A stretch of 64,000 bases of DNA. Source: Clostridium tyrobutyricum DSM 2637 = ATCC 25755 = JCM 11008. GTDB taxonomy: Bacteria; Bacillota; Clostridia; Clostridiales; Clostridiaceae. The stretch is taken from contig NZ_APMH01000005.1 in NCBI RefSeq assembly GCF_000359585.1, positions 62,001-126,000 on the forward strand. The letters run 5' to 3'. The notes under the pieces were generated by a model that searched no databases, was not told where the DNA came from, and was given only the letters and a program-made list of their open reading frames with translations. Shown here in pieces: positions 42,014 through 63,272 of the stretch; position 1 is the first letter of the stretch, and each line of letters starts with the position of its first letter. The position numbers and the translations under genes are program-made.

Positions 42014-42050
42014 TTGACATTAGACTAAAAAAATGCTAAAATCAGTCTAA
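42014..42050 (+). promoter_or_regulatory. Promoter with overlapping palindromic operator for the methyltransferase genes
   Basis: TTGACA (42014-42019), a 17-base spacer and TAAAAT (42037-42042) form a good promoter. TTAGACT (42020-42026) and AGTCTAA (42044-42050) are an inverted repeat flanking the -10 box, the expected place for a repressor or controller protein. Confidence 0.6.
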
Positions 42051-42076: not shown

Positions 42077-42298
42077 ATGCCAAATGAAAAGTATATTTAT
42101 TTAGATACTTACGTTCTTCAAAAAGATATGCGTATACGTTTGCCTAAGCAGGTACTTACTAATCTTGATGTTAAGAAGGGTGAAACATTATTTGATGTTT
42201 ATGTTGATCTAAAAACAAAAGAAATAATTTTACGTATATCGAATAAAAACCAGGACGGAGGTAGAGATGAGAGAAATGAATCCAATTATACATTTTGA
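42077..42298 (+). CDS. Small AbrB/MazE-like DNA-binding protein
   Basis: 73 residues. RIRLPKQVLTNLDVKKGETLF resembles the swapped-hairpin AbrB/SpoVT fold, in which 'LP..V...L.V..GD' is typical. It overlaps the next methyltransferase start by 32 bases and probably controls the modification genes or acts as an antitoxin-like partner. AAGGAG precedes the ATG. Confidence 0.55.
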   Translation: MPNEKYIYLDTYVLQKDMRIRLPKQVLTNLDVKKGETLFDVYVDLKTKEIILRISNKNQDGGRDERNESNYTF

Positions 42299-43355
42299 AA
42301 AGATAGACAGTGTTAATAATCCAAATTCAATGCATGGAATTTATCCATACAGAGGAAAAATTTCAGCTATAGATGCGCAGAATATTATTAAACAGTTACC
42401 ATCAAAAGGAACAATTTTGGATCCGTTTTGTGGTTCAGGAACTATAGTGTATGAGGGACAAAAGCATGGCTTGAAGGCTATAGGTGTTGATAACAATCCA
42501 CTTGCGGTTCAGTTAGCTAAAGCAAAAGTACATAAAGAAGTAGGAAGTAGTGTTGAAGAATGTAAGAAATTGATTGAAATGGCTAAGAAAGATTACGACT
42601 CTAAAAATTACGAAAAAATGTCTGAAGGGCCTTTAAAATCTTTTCATGAACAGACAGCTGCAGAAATCATGTGTATGAAAAACTACTATGAGTCAATGAA
42701 CGATTACCTTAAAGGTGTATTTTTTGGTGCAATTGCACTCGCTGCAAGAGGCTGTAATGGCTATGTTTGGACTTCAAGTACAGTAGGAAAAAATATTGAA
42801 CCAAAACGCTATATTGATTTCTTTGAGAAGATGTTATCAAAGACAAAGAAACATTCTAAATATTTTAATACCCTTGATTGCGAAGCTGCTAAAATTATTC
42901 ATGGTGATAGTAGAAAATTATCAGAAATGATAGAATCACATAGTATTGATTTTGTTTTTACAAGCCCACCATATTTTGATGGATTGGACTATACTGCATA
43001 TTATGGAAAGCTTGTGTATGAAATTTTTGAGATAGATAGGGTAGAGATAAAGAAAAATCTGATTCAATACGTTGATACATATGAAACTAGTATGAGAGCT
43101 GTTATTGAAGAATTAGAGAAAGTTACAACTGAGAATGCGTTAATTATATTTGTAGTTGGTGATAAAAGGGTTAAAGGTGAAGTTATTAACGGCGGAGACT
43201 TTTTTAGAAATATAAGAGAGGCTTCATATATTGAAGAACGAAGTTATAGCGGTAGCTCAAGTCAAGTATTTGATGTTTTAAATAAGACTAAGAGAAAAGA
43301 GCAAATTGTTGTTTGGGATAAATATAAAGGAGAAATAGTAAAACATGAATTTTAA
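42267..43355 (+). CDS. DNA methyltransferase M1 (TSPPY type)
   Basis: 362 residues. Motif I DPFCGSGTIVYEG at about 52-64 precedes the catalytic motif IV TSPPYFDG at about 231-238. S/TPPY is usual in N4-cytosine methylases, though N6-adenine cannot be excluded. GGAGGT precedes the ATG. Its 3' end overlaps M2 by 11 bases, so the two are translated together, as in systems that need one methylase per strand of an asymmetric site. Confidence 0.85.
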   Translation: MREMNPIIHFEKIDSVNNPNSMHGIYPYRGKISAIDAQNIIKQLPSKGTILDPFCGSGTIVYEGQKHGLKAIGVDNNPLAVQLAKAKVHKEVGSSVEECKKLIEMAKKDYDSKNYEKMSEGPLKSFHEQTAAEIMCMKNYYESMNDYLKGVFFGAIALAARGCNGYVWTSSTVGKNIEPKRYIDFFEKMLSKTKKHSKYFNTLDCEAAKIIHGDSRKLSEMIESHSIDFVFTSPPYFDGLDYTAYYGKLVYEIFEIDRVEIKKNLIQYVDTYETSMRAVIEELEKVTTENALIIFVVGDKRVKGEVINGGDFFRNIREASYIEERSYSGSSSQVFDVLNKTKRKEQIVVWDKYKGEIVKHEF

Positions 43356-44202
43356 ACCAAAAGCTGATATATACATAGGTGATAGTAGAAATATGAAAGA
43401 AGTTGCGGATGGAAGTGTACAATTAATTATTACAAGTCCTCCATATGGCGATTTAAAAGATTATGATAATGAAGGCCAGATTGGCCTAAACCAATCATAT
43501 GAAGATTATATTAATGATTTAAATGAAGTTTGGAAAGAATGCATAAGAGTCCTGGGACCAGATGGAAAGTTATGTATAAATATAATGCCTTTGTTTGAAT
43601 CTGGGAAAGCAACCACTTTTAATAGAAGGGTTACACATACAGTAATTTCAGATATTGAAAAGTTCATGGATTCAACAGGTAAAATGTTCACGTTAGCCCT
43701 CTATATTTGGGATAAAAGAAAGATTGTAAGATTTAGCTCTTTTGGAAGTTATCCATATCCGACTAATATTTTTTCAACATTTCCATATGAATGGATTATT
43801 GTATTTTGCAAAAAGGGGAAACGTGATAAAGTAAGTGAACAAATTAAAGAAAAGTCAAAGTTAACACATAAGGAATGGGCCGATTGGGCAGTTGATTCAT
43901 TTTGGGAAATGCAACCGGCAAAGGCAAAGTCTGAAGGACATCCAGCTCCATTCCCGAAAGAACTTCCACATAGGTTAATCAAATTGTACAGTTTTTATGG
44001 AGATACTGTATTAGATCCATTTATGGGAACTGGTACAACAGCAGAGGCGGCATTAGAATTAGGTAGAAATGCTATAGGATATGAAATAAATCCTGAATAT
44101 AAACAGCTTATTGAGGTAAAGTTAGAAAGAACAAAGAATGCTTGTCAGCAAATGTCGCTTTCAGATATGCTTGTTGAAGAGGAAAAACAAGATAATAAAT
44201 AG
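43345..44202 (+). CDS. DNA methyltransferase M2 (beta-order TSPPY type)
   Basis: 285 residues. Here motif IV TSPPYGDLKDY (about 30-40) comes first and motif I DPFMGTGTTAEAA (about 224-236) near the end, the beta arrangement, opposite to M1. EALELGRNAIGYEIN closes the SAM site. It probably modifies the second strand of the same recognition sequence. It ends at a shared hairpin before the convergent nuclease gene. Confidence 0.87.
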   Translation: MNFKPKADIYIGDSRNMKEVADGSVQLIITSPPYGDLKDYDNEGQIGLNQSYEDYINDLNEVWKECIRVLGPDGKLCINIMPLFESGKATTFNRRVTHTVISDIEKFMDSTGKMFTLALYIWDKRKIVRFSSFGSYPYPTNIFSTFPYEWIIVFCKKGKRDKVSEQIKEKSKLTHKEWADWAVDSFWEMQPAKAKSEGHPAPFPKELPHRLIKLYSFYGDTVLDPFMGTGTTAEAALELGRNAIGYEINPEYKQLIEVKLERTKNACQQMSLSDMLVEEEKQDNK

Positions 44203-44240
44203 GATTGTCAGTACCATTCAATACTTGGCAATCCTATTTA
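44196..44240. terminator. Bidirectional terminator between M2 and the nuclease gene
   Basis: TAAATAGGATTG (44196-44207) pairs with CAATCCTATTTA (44229-44240), a perfect 12-bp stem between two convergent genes. Confidence 0.75.
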
Positions 44241-44241
44241 T

Positions 44242-45129
44242 TTAAAAGGACTCTATGGAAATGATTTCGTTATTACTTACGACTTTTCCAGCAGATAATA
44301 ATCCTATGCAATTTAAATCGGAGAATAGTTGACTCAAAAAGATATCCCAAGAATATTTATTACCGCGTTCAAGGTAGCGGCAACATAAGCACCAAAGGGC
44401 GTTTGCAGAGATGAACTTGATGTTATTTGTAGTAACAATATCATAAAAGCGTTTAGATTTTGAGCCGATTTTTCCGGTACAGTATGGGCTAGTGGCGGGG
44501 TATAAATCAGTCTCTTTACCGCCGAAGAGTGTAATATAATTATAGTTTTTTATTGATTTTTCAATTTCTGTTGTGTATTTATAATTTTGTTCAATAAATC
44601 GTTCATCTTTTAATGCATCATCTAAGGAAATTTTTGTTTCAATTGCAATCAACTTATCTGAAGTCATAGAACATACATCCAACCGGCCATTGCGGTCATA
44701 ATCGTTATTAAAAACTGGGATTTCCATACCTACTCGATTAAAAGAGGAACACATGTGATTAACTATACCTGAAGTCCAGGGTTGTATATTTGAAGTTTCG
44801 TCTACTCCGGTAAATTCTTCAAGGTTTTTGATTGGATTTTTTAAGGCTTTTTTTGCATTTGGCATAGGAATAGGATTTCCCTGGAACGATTCATTTGAAT
44901 ACTTATTAATGAAGTCATCTCCCCAAAATTCTTTAAAAGATTTAAACACCTCATCATTATCAAAAATGCAGAAAAGACAACCAAAGCATTTTTGTGTAAA
45001 TGGATTAGATTTTGAAAAATCTAATCCATTACATTTATAGACAATTGTATATTCCTCATCCCTCTTAGTTTTTGGGATATTTTTGACAAAAAAATCAATA
45101 TCTTTGTATTTTCTAAATTTATATATCAT
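44242..45129 (-). CDS. PD-(D/E)XK nuclease with Cys cluster, putative restriction subunit
   Basis: 295 residues, no named family recognised. Asp151 (GRLDV) and Glu164-x-Lys166 (IAIETK) form a classical PD-(D/E)XK active site, followed by a Gln/Tyr-rich helix. Near the N-terminus Cys33 and C48-x2-C51-x2-C54 could hold an Fe-S cluster or zinc, reminiscent of Cas4/AddB-type nucleases. Its start codon overlaps the end of the preceding gene in a four-gene operon. It faces two methyltransferase genes, so a restriction role is the simplest reading. Confidence 0.65.
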   Translation of the reverse strand: MIYKFRKYKDIDFFVKNIPKTKRDEEYTIVYKCNGLDFSKSNPFTQKCFGCLFCIFDNDEVFKSFKEFWGDDFINKYSNESFQGNPIPMPNAKKALKNPIKNLEEFTGVDETSNIQPWTSGIVNHMCSSFNRVGMEIPVFNNDYDRNGRLDVCSMTSDKLIAIETKISLDDALKDERFIEQNYKYTTEIEKSIKNYNYITLFGGKETDLYPATSPYCTGKIGSKSKRFYDIVTTNNIKFISANALWCLCCRYLERGNKYSWDIFLSQLFSDLNCIGLLSAGKVVSNNEIISIESF

Positions 45130-46331
45130 TAGTTAGCCTCCATTTCTTTTATTACTTTTTTAGCCAATGCTATTGATTCCTTGGGTGCATCTTCACTAAG
45201 GATATCATCATTAATAGTTGTTTTAGGAATTAACATACCATGATCATCTATATCAAATGGTATTCCTGCAATATCAGCGATATCACTTTCGGATTCCATT
45301 AGAGTAGTAGGATCATTATCCTCTGAAAAAAATTCATCTGAGTATTTACTCATTGCAGTTACGAGCTTTTCAAAGTCTAGAGCTTTATTTAATTTACTAT
45401 AGTAGTTTAATGTGTATACAAAAACAAAACGTCTATTTAATATATTATTGTTATATTCCAGTGTAGCATTTCTTAAATCTTCGCCTCCATTTTCTCTTAA
45501 AGAAGCGACATTTTTGTGTAATCTCGAATAAGAAAGTGGATTGCTAACATAGGGTTTTGAGTTGAAAAGATTTATATAATGATCAGTTTTTTTATAATTA
45601 CGTACGGTAAGTATTTCGGAATTTACGAAATCTCTATATTTTATATGAGCAAGCGGCGAATCGTTAGTAGAAACGTCTTGGGGCTCAATTAGTCCTACAG
45701 TGACGCACCAGCCAATTAATCGAGACATGGTTCGCGTATTACTATCACGTTGGCTATCTGTGGAAATATCAATATATACTGTATTACCAGAACTATCAAT
45801 ATATTTTACTATTTCTGTAGTATGAGGATAGCTTAAATAAATGCCTGAATAGGAAAAGTTTATAGGTAGTTTTGCTATTTTATTTAGGAGTCCAATTGTA
45901 ACCCCATATGATAACACACCTTTTCTTGCGATATCTTCCCATTCAGATGAATAAAAATCGCTATTAACCCACTTTTCACCCTCTGAAGAAATTTTATATT
46001 TTCTTTTATTACGGGAAATAAAGCCAAGAGCTTCAAGTGAACCGCCAATATCGCTTACAGCTTTTGATTTTGTAGAATCACTAGCAACAGACTGAGTAGC
46101 ATAACATTTGGATAAATTGAGGGGATTGATTAAATAGGGGCAACATTGCCTACCAACAATATTTTTCAAGAGGTTACAATAGTTATGAACATTGTATACA
46201 TCATTTGGATCAAATTTTAAATTTTTAAGATTAAACTCTTTTGTAACGCCATACTTTTTGTAGCATGATGTCAAAATGTAATAAAGGCATTCAAGACGAC
46301 TACCATATTTTCTATTTAGTAATAATGCCAT
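45129..46331 (-). CDS. Unknown protein with winged-helix-like segment, putative R-M or defence subunit
   Basis: 400 residues. The N-terminal third contains a pattern like SDIGGSLEALGFISRNKRKYKISSEGEKW, suggestive of a winged helix found in FokI-like restriction proteins. The remainder is unfamiliar, and the end is acidic. The gene overlaps its neighbours at both ends by a base or so, so it is translated together with the nuclease and the Cys-cluster protein. It may recognise the DNA target. Confidence 0.5.
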   Translation of the reverse strand: MALLLNRKYGSRLECLYYILTSCYKKYGVTKEFNLKNLKFDPNDVYNVHNYCNLLKNIVGRQCCPYLINPLNLSKCYATQSVASDSTKSKAVSDIGGSLEALGFISRNKRKYKISSEGEKWVNSDFYSSEWEDIARKGVLSYGVTIGLLNKIAKLPINFSYSGIYLSYPHTTEIVKYIDSSGNTVYIDISTDSQRDSNTRTMSRLIGWCVTVGLIEPQDVSTNDSPLAHIKYRDFVNSEILTVRNYKKTDHYINLFNSKPYVSNPLSYSRLHKNVASLRENGGEDLRNATLEYNNNILNRRFVFVYTLNYYSKLNKALDFEKLVTAMSKYSDEFFSEDNDPTTLMESESDIADIAGIPFDIDDHGMLIPKTTINDDILSEDAPKESIALAKKVIKEMEAN

Positions 46332-46981
46332 TAGAGATTACCTCCTACTTTAAGATATAATTGTTCTAAATTGTATACTTGAGCATCAAAAGGTAACTTG
46401 ATTCTCAGTTTAGAAGCTGGAATTAAATTCCCATAAATAAAGTTTATATTAGGGTAAATTTCCTTATATGTATCAATCACTTCACCATATGAACGAGAAT
46501 AAAACGGTATCTTATCTAAGTTTTTTATCAACTTTATAAGGTAAGCCGTGTCATTTAAAAAGATTACTAAATCAATACGTTTCGTTCGAAAATTCCCTTT
46601 GACTTGTACTTCAGATGCTACAATTGCAGACGGAATCAAAGATTGAAATAGAATGCTTGCTTTTCCTAGGTCACGGAAAAGGACATCTTCTAATTTTTTA
46701 GTAAACAAACTAGTAACTGATGCTGGATTTTTTTTGCAACATGCAATTTGGCATAATCCACATTCATCGCATGCTGTTAAAACAACAAGTTTATGGTTTT
46801 CAAAGCTCTGAGCGAACTTGTGACAGACAAAATATTCGGAGCATTTTAACTTTGAATTTGTGATAATATCTTCTATGTAACTATTGCTAGGTATATTTTG
46901 AATAATACATTTAGGTATATCTTTTACTTCAGGACAACCGATACAAAAATTTTTATCCATTGATATCATTTCTTTTGACAA
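46331..46981 (-). CDS. Ferredoxin-like Cys-cluster protein with degenerate nuclease core
   Basis: 216 residues. C71-x2-C74-x2-C77-x3-C81 is the classic 4Fe-4S ferredoxin pattern, with five further Cys (13, 16, 25, 47, 53) that could hold a second centre. The C-terminal part, RIDLVIFLNDTAYLIKLIK, looks like a PD-(D/E)XK sheet in which the Asp remains but the Glu of ExK is lost. It could be a structural or sensing partner of the active nuclease. Not recognised as a known family. Confidence 0.5.
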   Translation of the reverse strand: MSKEMISMDKNFCIGCPEVKDIPKCIIQNIPSNSYIEDIITNSKLKCSEYFVCHKFAQSFENHKLVVLTACDECGLCQIACCKKNPASVTSLFTKKLEDVLFRDLGKASILFQSLIPSAIVASEVQVKGNFRTKRIDLVIFLNDTAYLIKLIKNLDKIPFYSRSYGEVIDTYKEIYPNINFIYGNLIPASKLRIKLPFDAQVYNLEQLYLKVGGNL

Positions 46982-47011
46982 TTTGCTACCTCCTTAGTGA
47001 ACAAAATCCCA

Positions 47012-47221
47012 TTAGTCCTTATTATCAACAATTTCCATAATATCTGAAATATCACAGTTAAGAGCCTTACATACTTTTATTAAAATGTCAGTATTAACAT
47101 TTTCATTTTTGCCAAGCTTGGCCATTGAAGCCGTACTAATACCAGCTGCTTCCCTCAAGTCTTTCTTTTTCATGCCTCTATCTATAAGAAGTTTCCAAAG
47201 CTTTTTATAACTTATGGACAT
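47012..47221 (-). CDS. Cro/C1-type HTH regulator
   Basis: 69 residues. KKLWKLLIDRGMKKKDLREA, then AGISTASMAKLGKNENVNTD and LIKVCKALNCDISDIMEI form a complete XRE helix-turn-helix with no sensor domain. As the first gene of the operon leading to the Cys-cluster and nuclease genes it may serve as a controller (C-protein) that delays nuclease expression. AGGTGA precedes the ATG. Confidence 0.83.
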   Translation of the reverse strand: MSISYKKLWKLLIDRGMKKKDLREAAGISTASMAKLGKNENVNTDILIKVCKALNCDISDIMEIVDNKD

Positions 47222-47421: not shown

Positions 47422-49290
47422 TTGTCGGGTAATCGTTCATTTAAAGAGTATGTGGCAGAAAGATTCTATAATGAGATGTTTGCTACCGTACAAAGTTACA
47501 CTGGGGATAACTACGATGACTTAGACTTAAGGCTATATAGAATTAGAAATATCGGTGGCATAGAATTGTCAGATATAGAAATAAAGTATGTGTCTGTTAA
47601 TGATTTACCAGACATGAAAATAGAATTTGATGTTGCTGTGGAAGCTGAATTTGAAGTCCGAGAGTCAGATTATCACTATGATGAATCAGAAAATTGCCGG
47701 CAATGGTTTATGGTGGAATGCTCAGGAGATTTAGATTGTAATTTGGATGATCTTGCCATCTCCAGTATAACTGAGTATACCAGCAAAAATAAGCAGCCCA
47801 AACCTATGTCGGACTCCCTTGTCCCTATCATTCATAAGGAACAACTAGAATCTGTTGCTACAGACTTCCTTAGAAGACATTACCCTGAAGCATTAAAAAC
47901 CCCGATTGCAGTTGAACCACAAGTGTTAGCAGAAAAAATGGGTCTTGTCGTGGAAATGAGAGAGATTACAAAGGATTTCTCTGTTTTTGGACAGATATAC
48001 TTTCATGACTGTGATGCAGAATTTTATGATAAAAACAGCGATGAAATGGTACAAACTCATGTCGATGCCCGTACTATATTCGTAGATCCTAAAGCGTACT
48101 TTCTTCGTAATCTTGGGTCAGTCAATAACACCATTGTGCACGAGTGCGTTCATTGGGACAAACATAGGAAAGCATTTGAATTGGAGCGATTATATAACAG
48201 CAGTGCTAGTAAAATTAAGTGTCAAGTAGTAGGCGGTATAAAAGATAACATTAGAGATGCAGCTGACTGGATGGAGTGGCAGGCAAATGCACTTGCACCA
48301 AGGATTCAAATGCCGTTGATTATGTTTAAGACCAAGGCATTTGAATTTATCAAGCAGTTTAGAACTGAACTTGGAACATCTAAACTTATAGATGTAATGG
48401 AACCAGTTATTGATGCATTGGCAGCATTCTTCTGTGTGTCAAGGTTAGCAGCTAAAATTCGTATGATTGATGCCGGATATGAAGAGGCTATTGGGACTTT
48501 CACCTACATAGATGGTCATTATGTTAAGCCGCATAGATTTAAAAAAGGTACATTGCAAAGAAATCAAACTTTTTCAATAGGTGTAATAGATGCTGCGATT
48601 GAAAGCATAATTAATCCTCAACTGAGAGATATTGGGGTAAAAGGGATTTATCAATATGTGGATTCACATTTTGTTTTAAATCATCCCAAATATTTAACAC
48701 AAGATGAGAATGGTTTTGCAGTATTAACCAATTATGCGCTAAATCATATGGATGAGTGCTGCTTGGTATTCGTTTTATCAGTTAAAGCTGGTTGTAGAGA
48801 AAAATATAATAGTGAGTGTTTTCTTAACAGGGATGAATCATCTGCTATTGATTTTGAGATAAAATACTGTAATGGCTACGAGAACTCAACCAAGGAAAAG
48901 CAGAATAAGTATTTAGAAGAATTAATGGCAGAGAATGCAAAAATGTATGATTTGCTCTCCAATAACTACCTTGATTGTTTAGATAAATTAAGAAAATGGA
49001 GGAAAATTACTTTTGTGAAACTAAACAAGAAAGTTCTTATGGACGAACGCCAGCTAAGACGAATTTTTAAGGGTGAATCTAAGGGCTCATTAAATGCTTT
49101 GTTATCAATTTGTCTAGCAATGCATTTACCACCAGAGATTAGTTTTCACATTATTGAAAAATCTCCATTTACGTTATCTATGGGGGATGAAAATCATAGA
49201 TGGTATAGATTTGTACTTATATATTATTATGGTAAATCCATGGATGAAATAAGGTGCTTTTTAGCTGAGCACAATGTAGAGCCTTTATAA
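47422..49290 (+). CDS. Large ImmA/IrrE-type metallopeptidase with C-terminal HTH-like region
   Basis: 622 residues from a TTG after GGGGGGAG. The zinc motif VHECVH (HExxH, about 239-243) lies in an ImmA/IrrE-type domain preceded by PQVLAEKMGLVVEMREI. The N-terminal ~160 residues are acidic and unfamiliar. The C-terminus (KLNKKVLMDERQLRRIFKGE) resembles a small XRE-like helix-turn-helix. ImmA proteins cleave phage/ICE repressors to induce the element; this one is much larger than usual and diverges from the HTH operon. Confidence 0.72.
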   Translation: MSGNRSFKEYVAERFYNEMFATVQSYTGDNYDDLDLRLYRIRNIGGIELSDIEIKYVSVNDLPDMKIEFDVAVEAEFEVRESDYHYDESENCRQWFMVECSGDLDCNLDDLAISSITEYTSKNKQPKPMSDSLVPIIHKEQLESVATDFLRRHYPEALKTPIAVEPQVLAEKMGLVVEMREITKDFSVFGQIYFHDCDAEFYDKNSDEMVQTHVDARTIFVDPKAYFLRNLGSVNNTIVHECVHWDKHRKAFELERLYNSSASKIKCQVVGGIKDNIRDAADWMEWQANALAPRIQMPLIMFKTKAFEFIKQFRTELGTSKLIDVMEPVIDALAAFFCVSRLAAKIRMIDAGYEEAIGTFTYIDGHYVKPHRFKKGTLQRNQTFSIGVIDAAIESIINPQLRDIGVKGIYQYVDSHFVLNHPKYLTQDENGFAVLTNYALNHMDECCLVFVLSVKAGCREKYNSECFLNRDESSAIDFEIKYCNGYENSTKEKQNKYLEELMAENAKMYDLLSNNYLDCLDKLRKWRKITFVKLNKKVLMDERQLRRIFKGESKGSLNALLSICLAMHLPPEISFHIIEKSPFTLSMGDENHRWYRFVLIYYYGKSMDEIRCFLAEHNVEPL

Positions 49291-61956: not shown

Positions 61957-61998
61957 GCACCTTAAGAAGTTAAATGAAAAATATACTTTTTAAGGTGC
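61957..61998 (+). terminator. Hairpin before the ParB-methylase gene
   Basis: GCACCTTAA (61957-61965) pairs perfectly with TTAAGGTGC (61990-61998), followed by a T-rich tail. An ATG inside it (61974) is not a likely start. It may end transcription from upstream or regulate the following gene. Confidence 0.6.
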
Positions 61999-62027
61999 TT
62001 TCTATTGCTTTTAAGGAAGGTGAAAAA

Positions 62028-63272
62028 GTGGACATTCAGAAGATAGCTGTTGAGAAACTTAATCCAGCTAAATATAATCCAAGAAAAGATTTAAAGCCAG
62101 GAGATCCTGAATATGAAAAACTTAAAAGATCAATTGAAACCTTCGGATATGTAGAACCTGTAATTTGGAATAAGAAAACAGGAAATATTGTGGGGGGACA
62201 TCAAAGGTTTAAGGTTTTAAAGCAGGAAGGTACGAAGGAAATTGAATGCGTAGTTGTTGATATAAGTTCAGATGAGGAGAAGGCATTGAATGTAGCTCTT
62301 AATAAAGTAAGTGGAGAATGGGATATGCCAAAGTTAGTTGATATTTTAGATGAACTTGATAAATCTATGTTTGATATCTCACTTACAGGATTTGATGCCG
62401 CAGAGATAGAAGATTTATTTTCTAAAGTTCATGATAAAGAAGTTAAGGATGATGACTTTGATGCAGATAAAACTCTTGAAGAAATAGAAGAACCTATAAC
62501 AAGAGCAGGCGATCTGTGGATATTAGGAAAACACAGGTTAATATGTGGTGACAGCACTAAAGCTTCTGATGTTGAAAAGCTTATGAATGGGAAAAAAGCT
62601 AATCTATGTGTTACTGATCCACCTTATAACGTTAACTATTCAGCAGGAAAAGAAAATGAAAGAGTTATAAAAAATGACAGCATGGATGATAAGAGTTTTC
62701 ATGAATTTCTACTAGCTGCCTTTAAAAATATATTTGCAGCACTTGATGATGGGGCGGGGGCTTATATTTTTCATGCGGATACAGAAGGATTGAACTTTAG
62801 AAAAGCTTTTAAAGAAGCTGGCTTTCATCTTTCAAGCGTATGTGTTTGGGTAAAGCAGTCATTGGTTTTAGGAAGAAGTGATTATCAATTCCAGCATGAG
62901 CCTGTACTTTATGGATGGAAACCAACAGGGAAGCATAGATGGTATTCAGATAGAAAACAGACAACTGTATGGAATTTTGATAGACCGAGCAAAAGTCCGG
63001 ATCATCCAACAATGAAGCCGGTACCATTAATAGCATATCCAATTAAAAATAGCAGCATGACAAACTGTATAGTATTTGAACCTTTTGCTGGAAGTGGATC
63101 TACTTTAATTGCCTGTGAACAAACAGATAGGATATGTTATGCAGTAGAGCTTGATGAAAAATATTGTGATGTTATTGTAAAAAGATATATAGAAACTTCT
63201 GGAAATGAGGAAGTATTCCTAATAAGAGATGGTGAAAAAATAGATTATAAAAATGTGCTTAAAGTTGAATAA
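62028..63272 (+). CDS. ParB-like nuclease domain/DNA methyltransferase fusion
   Basis: 414 residues from a GTG after AAGGAAGGTGA. The N-terminal ParB/Srx domain shows LNPAKYNPRKDL, GYVEPVIWNKKTGNIVGGHQR. The C-terminal beta-class methylase has motif IV TDPPYNVNYS and motif I FEPFAGSGSTLIACEQ. This fusion is common in prophages near terminase; it probably modifies phage DNA to evade host restriction. Confidence 0.93.
   Translation: MDIQKIAVEKLNPAKYNPRKDLKPGDPEYEKLKRSIETFGYVEPVIWNKKTGNIVGGHQRFKVLKQEGTKEIECVVVDISSDEEKALNVALNKVSGEWDMPKLVDILDELDKSMFDISLTGFDAAEIEDLFSKVHDKEVKDDDFDADKTLEEIEEPITRAGDLWILGKHRLICGDSTKASDVEKLMNGKKANLCVTDPPYNVNYSAGKENERVIKNDSMDDKSFHEFLLAAFKNIFAALDDGAGAYIFHADTEGLNFRKAFKEAGFHLSSVCVWVKQSLVLGRSDYQFQHEPVLYGWKPTGKHRWYSDRKQTTVWNFDRPSKSPDHPTMKPVPLIAYPIKNSSMTNCIVFEPFAGSGSTLIACEQTDRICYAVELDEKYCDVIVKRYIETSGNEEVFLIRDGEKIDYKNVLKVE

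Follow-up and report, generated by a model that had tools for sequence, protein, structure and literature searches.

We analysed a 64,000-nt stretch of the genome of Clostridium tyrobutyricum DSM 2637 (contig NZ_APMH01000005.1, positions 62,001 to 126,000; hereafter, the window) and found in it a locus where two DNA methylase genes, M1 and M2, face three genes of the opposite strand, A, B and C. We consider that this locus probably represents a prophage-borne, Type IIS-like restriction-modification (R-M) system, whose endonuclease is split over B as the specificity subunit, A as the catalytic subunit and C as a partner likely to be inactive. The original prediction, which was drawn from this DNA alone, had proposed a candidate new R-M locus in which two methylases are combined with cysteine-cluster nuclease proteins. 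Linkage of the five genes in seven of seven loci, with no named family for the nuclease-like proteins, supports that proposal, the activity itself being predicted.

M1, M2, A, B and C occurred together, in identical order and orientation, in all seven loci. Of 98 related genomes searched with A, two gave matches, the window's own and a distant one carrying the full set (genome G096, contig 80; locus L003), and a scan of genome contigs with B added five more loci, namely L009 (Haloimpatiens lingqiaonensis), L010 (a Coprococcus metagenome-assembled genome, MAG), L011 (a Clostridia MAG), L012 and L013. Since the contig scan requires exact short peptide matches, seven loci are a lower bound. Protein identity to the window ranged from 37 to 87% for A, 42 to 92% for B, 25 to 85% for C, 57 to 92% for M1 and 67 to 94% for M2, and because the five genes stay in order at 25-94% identity, the arrangement goes beyond chance. 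The co-occurrence that the original prediction had proposed to look for was present in every locus, where the minus-strand genes were never seen without the methylases, and with it (7/7) the linkage of methyltransferase and putative nuclease genes that, together with matched specificity, characterises Type II R-M systems. Comparison of the window with L009 gave ratios of nonsynonymous to synonymous substitution rates of 0.112 for M1, 0.127 for M2, 0.097 for A, 0.152 for B and 0.253 for C; including two accessory genes, one for a helix-turn-helix (HTH) regulator (0.035) and one for an ImmA-like protein (0.112), the range over seven genes was 0.035-0.253.

The locus is rare. Among 391 genomes of the class, A, B and M1 (the last at E 1e-20) each gave strong matches only in the same two, G000 and G096; the three samples are assumed to comprise the same genomes, as their size and listed handles agree. 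Two further weak matches to A in this sample (E 0.005, with internal stops) were set aside as chance. Other relatives were limited to one of 398 genomes of the phylum and one of 160 genomes in the family of the Coprococcus genome, each of them already known. No relatives of A or B were found among plasmids and none of the L012 B protein among phages, while viral contigs searched with A, B and C yielded only IMGVR_UViG_2554235112_000004, at 100% identity.

B, first described as a winged-HTH-like protein, is corrected here, by a model match, to a FokI-type DNA-recognition subunit. Zinc-finger and TALE nucleases are driven by the cleavage domain of FokI, the classic nuclease built of two domains. 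The predicted model of B, a protein of 400 amino acids, matched residues 13-379 of FokI, that is, its recognition part, and the match stopped at FokI residues 379-385, ahead of the cleavage part. The modelled chain therefore has a FokI-type recognition domain and no C-terminal cleavage domain, and on the strength of this model we take B to be a stand-alone FokI-type DNA-recognition subunit. The profiles FokI_D1 and FokI_dom_2 found nothing over cut-off in any of the seven genomes, nor were they among the Pfam hits in B. Five cysteines of B (15, 52, 64, 76 and 209) are invariant, some of them in or near a low-confidence loop, and may form a third metal site.

A appears to provide the catalytic centre. 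Nine of its residues (C33, C48, C51, C54, E136, D151, E164 and K166 of an E164-x-K166 motif, and Q181) were invariant in the seven loci, and the E...D...ExK series among them is, by sequence, a classical and complete PD-(D/E)XK motif, which makes A the putative catalytic subunit. Both the motif and the cysteines agree with the earlier description of A as a PD-(D/E)XK nuclease with its own CxxCxxC. No significant match to A was obtained among solved structures, the top PDB hit being a zinc-finger chain with E 0.34.

In C, the cysteines C25, C53, C71, C74 and C77 were present in 7/7 loci and C13, C16 and C81 in 6/7, so that the cysteine motifs first noted in both proteins were borne out and are conserved. 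The set includes ligand cysteines as expected for a [4Fe-4S] cluster (C53, C71, C74, C77 and, in six members, C81), and six of the seven C members carry a C-x2-C-x2-C-x3-C run with more cysteines upstream. Ferredoxin profiles of the [4Fe-4S] type nevertheless stayed under cut-off: the highest Fer4 score among the scanned members was 18.5 bits (L010) against a cut-off of 21.1, the L009 protein being covered only inside another profile search. The AlphaFold2 (AF2) model of C (mean confidence, pLDDT, 81.3) gave a list of fold matches rich in PD-(D/E)XK nucleases, and the core fold is present in the model while the catalytic triad is incomplete. D137 and K150 were kept in all seven loci, Leu148 replaces the acid two positions before K150 in all of them, and E124 is Gln in L012. 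Because the triad is incomplete, C is probably an inactive or structural partner subunit. What the original prediction had called a ferredoxin-like protein thus does have a ferredoxin-like domain, with the correction that it is fused to a fold of PD-(D/E)XK kind from which one catalytic acid is missing.

We also compared A and C with each other. Their N-terminal cysteine regions aligned in hhalign with P 5.4e-4 and a probability of 30%, and 0 of 100 column shuffles reached the score, a control limited by the fact that column shuffling also breaks the CxxCxxC spacing. The nuclease parts alone aligned in the expected register and without significance (P 0.073; 7 of 100 shuffles exceeded the score), and homology of A and C over their full length was rejected for this reason. 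Neither A, B nor C of the window matched any Pfam or NCBIfam family over cut-off, or anything in PADLOC at E up to 1; A gave weak single-member hits. Membership of the three proteins in a named family was thus rejected, including a family with a role other than defence, which would have spoken against the original prediction.

Taken together, these data are consistent with the following scheme. M1 and M2 would each modify, and so protect, one strand of an asymmetric site, and A, B and C would assemble into a three-chain restriction enzyme acting in defence. B would locate the site through its recognition domain, itself devoid of a cleavage domain, whereas A would use its PD-(D/E)XK site to cleave unmodified DNA nearby. 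C, which is paralogue-like, would be the non-cutting half, or the scaffold, in a cleavage dimer of A with C (or A with A). The cysteine domains in both A and C may bind [4Fe-4S] or zinc and contribute to folding, subunit contact or DNA binding. Finally, an AbrB-like protein would limit expression of the methylases and an HTH protein would time restriction.

With FokI, a Type IIS enzyme, the locus shares the recognition part matched by B, nuclease chains of PD-(D/E)XK type and the logic of an asymmetric site. It differs in that recognition is assigned to a separate protein, that the nuclease parts are separate cysteine-rich chains and that there are two separate methylases with a TSPPY motif, in contrast to M.FokI, which is one fused N6-methyladenine enzyme. 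In the two-chain enzymes BspD6I and BstNBI the large chain recognises and cuts, whereas here these tasks would be divided between chains and a third, cysteine-rich one would be added. Among Type IIT pairs, the larger chain recognises and cuts in BsrDI, BtsI and BspD6I, and separate specificity subunits are known from Type IIB and IIG enzymes (PMC4081073). The original prediction had likened the locus to BbvCI, a Type IIT enzyme with which it does share two methylases, as is the rule for that type (PMC4081073), more than one nuclease-type subunit and, by prediction, an asymmetric site. Both subunits of BbvCI recognise and cut (PMC4081073), whereas here the recognition fold resides in B; since B proved to be of FokI type, BbvCI was rejected as the closest model in favour of FokI and BspD6I. 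In the portions of the literature searched, we found no description of an iron-sulfur Type II enzyme, of a split FokI, or of a free-standing FokI-type reader with ferredoxin-like partners of nuclease fold.

It is possible, and we propose it tentatively, that this is the first restriction enzyme to have reader, cutter and iron-sulfur partner as three proteins, dependent on [4Fe-4S] and gated by oxygen or redox state, found largely in anaerobes and missed by aerobic screens. The relatives with a stated source came from Clostridia or gut material, where, as far as these few loci go, an oxygen-sensitive enzyme would be tolerated. Quite conceivably, if not quite probably, the cysteine sites of the same R-M system are instead structural Zn(Cys)4 or single-iron sites, as in BslI and NotI, and insensitive to redox state and oxygen. 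The original prediction regarded Fe-S-type clusters as unusual in restriction subunits; Cys4 metal sites do have precedent there, with zinc in BslI, PacI and DpnI and iron in NotI (PMC4081073). BslI moreover needs two different chains, and A, whose best structural hit is a zinc-finger chain, has exactly four invariant cysteines. Against a purely structural metal stand the matches of C to 4Fe-4S ferredoxin profiles and chains, even if under cut-off, and the cysteine spacing found in six of its seven members. The locus also differs from BslI and NotI in having cysteines of ferredoxin-type spacing in C, a FokI-type third subunit and no significant solved-structure match for A, BslI being set apart on its description. 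Fe-S nucleases of the Cas4/AddB kind have cluster cysteines that flank the nuclease core on both sides, whereas all the invariant cysteines of A and C precede the nuclease motif.

Catalysis could also be distributed differently. In a heterodimer of Type IIT kind, A and C would both be active, each on one strand, with the catalytic acid of C relocated. Such a layout is known with two methyltransferases (PMC4081073), and both the nuclease-like predicted fold of C and the retention of its D137 and K150 in 7/7 loci would fit it. Two different catalytic sites are expected of a Type IIT enzyme; the motif of A is complete, and C has Leu where the acid should precede K150 in every locus and Gln for E124 in one. 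We consider this arrangement less likely than one with an inactive C. Far less credible is that the minus-strand operon serves site-specific nicking, recombination or another prophage function that uses a methylated site, with M1 and M2 as modulators. The locus is indeed prophage-borne here and C is probably without catalysis; against this, prophage genes were not recognised by eye in the flanks of L012 and L013, and a FokI-type recognition domain, a nuclease-like chain and two methyltransferases are the usual R-M set. If the split-endonuclease reading is true, a free-standing FokI-type reader that recruits separate nuclease chains would illustrate the evolution of this kind of modularity and could be used as a reader for cutters provided in trans. 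If, in addition, the clusters prove to be [4Fe-4S], restriction in anaerobes could depend on the oxygen or redox state.

Both methylases contain TSPPY and a Pfam N6_N4_Mtase domain, with their motifs in opposite order, as read directly from the sequence and as first noted: in M1, DPFCGSGT (residues 52-59) is followed by TSPPY (232-236), whereas in M2 TSPPY (30-34) precedes DPFMGTGT (224-231). Solved relatives of M2 include N4-cytosine enzymes (8s9m, PvuII) and N6-adenine enzymes (RsrI, MboIIA, CcrM). As a rule, TSPPY in an amino-methyltransferase goes with N4-methylcytosine, and its presence in both proteins suggests this product. The top strand of the FokI site, GGATG, has no C, so that a pair of N4-methylcytosine enzymes would imply a site other than that of FokI.

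The seven open reading frames (ORFs) of the original prediction were all recovered (Table 1). The AbrB-like gene, M1 and M2 run rightward, with overlaps of 32 bases (AbrB-like/M1) and 11 bases (M1/M2), and C, B and A run leftward with overlaps of 1 base, behind the HTH_26 gene and towards the methylase operon; the order, the M1/M2 overlap and the HTH regulator at the head of the facing operon had all been anticipated.

Table 1. Features of the locus, in positions of the window
Feature	Position	Strand	Basis
Candidate promoter TTGACA-17-TAAAAT with inverted repeats, candidate operator of the AbrB-like protein	42014..42049	+	
Small AbrB/MazE-like protein that likely autoregulates the methylase operon	42077..42298	+	weak profile matches under cut-off
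M1, amino-methyltransferase, motif I precedes TSPPY	42267..43355	+	Pfam N6_N4_Mtase 7e-13, MethyltransfD12 8.3e-12
M2, beta-class-like amino-methyltransferase, TSPPY precedes motif I	43345..44202	+	Pfam N6_N4_Mtase 2.2e-48
A, putative catalytic subunit, Cys4 and nuclease motif	44242..45129	-	conserved residues
B, predicted separate FokI-type DNA-recognition subunit without cleavage domain	45129..46331	-	predicted-model match to FokI
C, ferredoxin-like Cys domain and PD-(D/E)XK-like domain	46331..46981	-	Fer4-type profiles under cut-off; AF2 model
HTH_26 regulator, first gene of the restriction operon, possible controller protein	47012..47221	-	HTH_26 8.8e-21
ImmA/IrrE-like protein of 622 aa with an HExxH motif, optional neighbour in divergent orientation	47422..49290	+	Peptidase_M78 E 0.075, PADLOC capP E 1e-4

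Upstream of the AbrB-like gene, a promoter-like TTGACA (42014-42019) is separated by a 17-base spacer from TAAAAT (42037-42042). The spacer contains TAGACTAA (42021-42028), and the inverted complement of this 8-mer lies at the -10 end (42042-42049). The 8-mer is not enriched across the window (4 sites against 8.8 expected), and two of the four sites are at this promoter. The degenerate form YAGACTRA was found within 120 bases upstream of the gene in 5/5 loci that have it (at 112 bases in L003) and in 0/2 loci that do not. Promoter repeats and a motif that tracks the presence of the gene suggest that the AbrB-like protein autorepresses the methylase operon. Its name is the weakest label of the locus: the profile matches, to doc_partner with E 0.0015 and to MazE_antitoxin with E 0.088, are both under cut-off.

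Relatives of the AbrB-like gene were present in five of the seven loci, the window included, those of the HTH gene in two and those of the ImmA-like protein in three. Compared with the 7/7 of M1, M2, A, B and C, which form the core, these genes look optional. L011 has a different HTH gene (HTH_3, E 3.3e-13) directly before C, in the position of HTH_26, and in L003 the protease-like gene is present while an HTH gene is absent from the ORF list. In the window, the ImmA/IrrE-like protein, with its HExxH motif and weak capP match, is encoded divergently to the HTH gene. CapH-CapP regulator pairs have a similar divergent arrangement of HTH and protease genes, and by analogy the ImmA/IrrE-like protein could trigger the restriction operon upon DNA damage.

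To the left of the locus lies rlmD/rumA, and to the right are genes for DUF2800, an Enc34-type single-stranded DNA-binding protein, DNA polymerase A, a KilAC antirepressor, VapE and an SNF2 helicase, phage genes that identify the setting as a prophage. This fits the suggestion that the locus occupies the left end of a mobile element; a search for an attachment-site repeat of the prophage gave none that was convincing. The prophage also encodes a fusion of ParB_N and N6_N4_Mtase domains (61974-63272). Beside its copy, L009 has similar-sized ORFs, and an ORF of 453 aa, as long as rumA of the window, occupies the equivalent place. The Coprococcus copy too is near a rumA-like gene (L010:6310-9411, by eye), with a gene weakly similar to NucS_C (E 0.015) and a small one of PD-(D/E)XK appearance in between. 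The rumA end may thus be a recurrent insertion spot. The neighbours of L012, by eye, are speD-like and nitroreductase-like genes, and in L013 an SMC/AAA_13-type ATPase, possibly a second defence gene, adjoins the module (L013:6682-9327).

Plasmid contexts were viewed for six distant relatives of M1 or M2. On a Helicobacter suis plasmid (L014:5025-7825), the genes of an M2-like methylase (44% identity) and a second methylase are likewise convergent with that of a 432-aa 'type II restriction endonuclease subunit R'; this last protein is not significantly similar to any of A, B and C, and it passes the cut-off of no Pfam family. Other distant relatives of M1 or M2 have PLD-type or NucS-type genes beside them; those on the plasmids of L017 and L019 adjoin PLD-family nuclease genes, which suggests that methylases like M1 and M2 serve other systems too.
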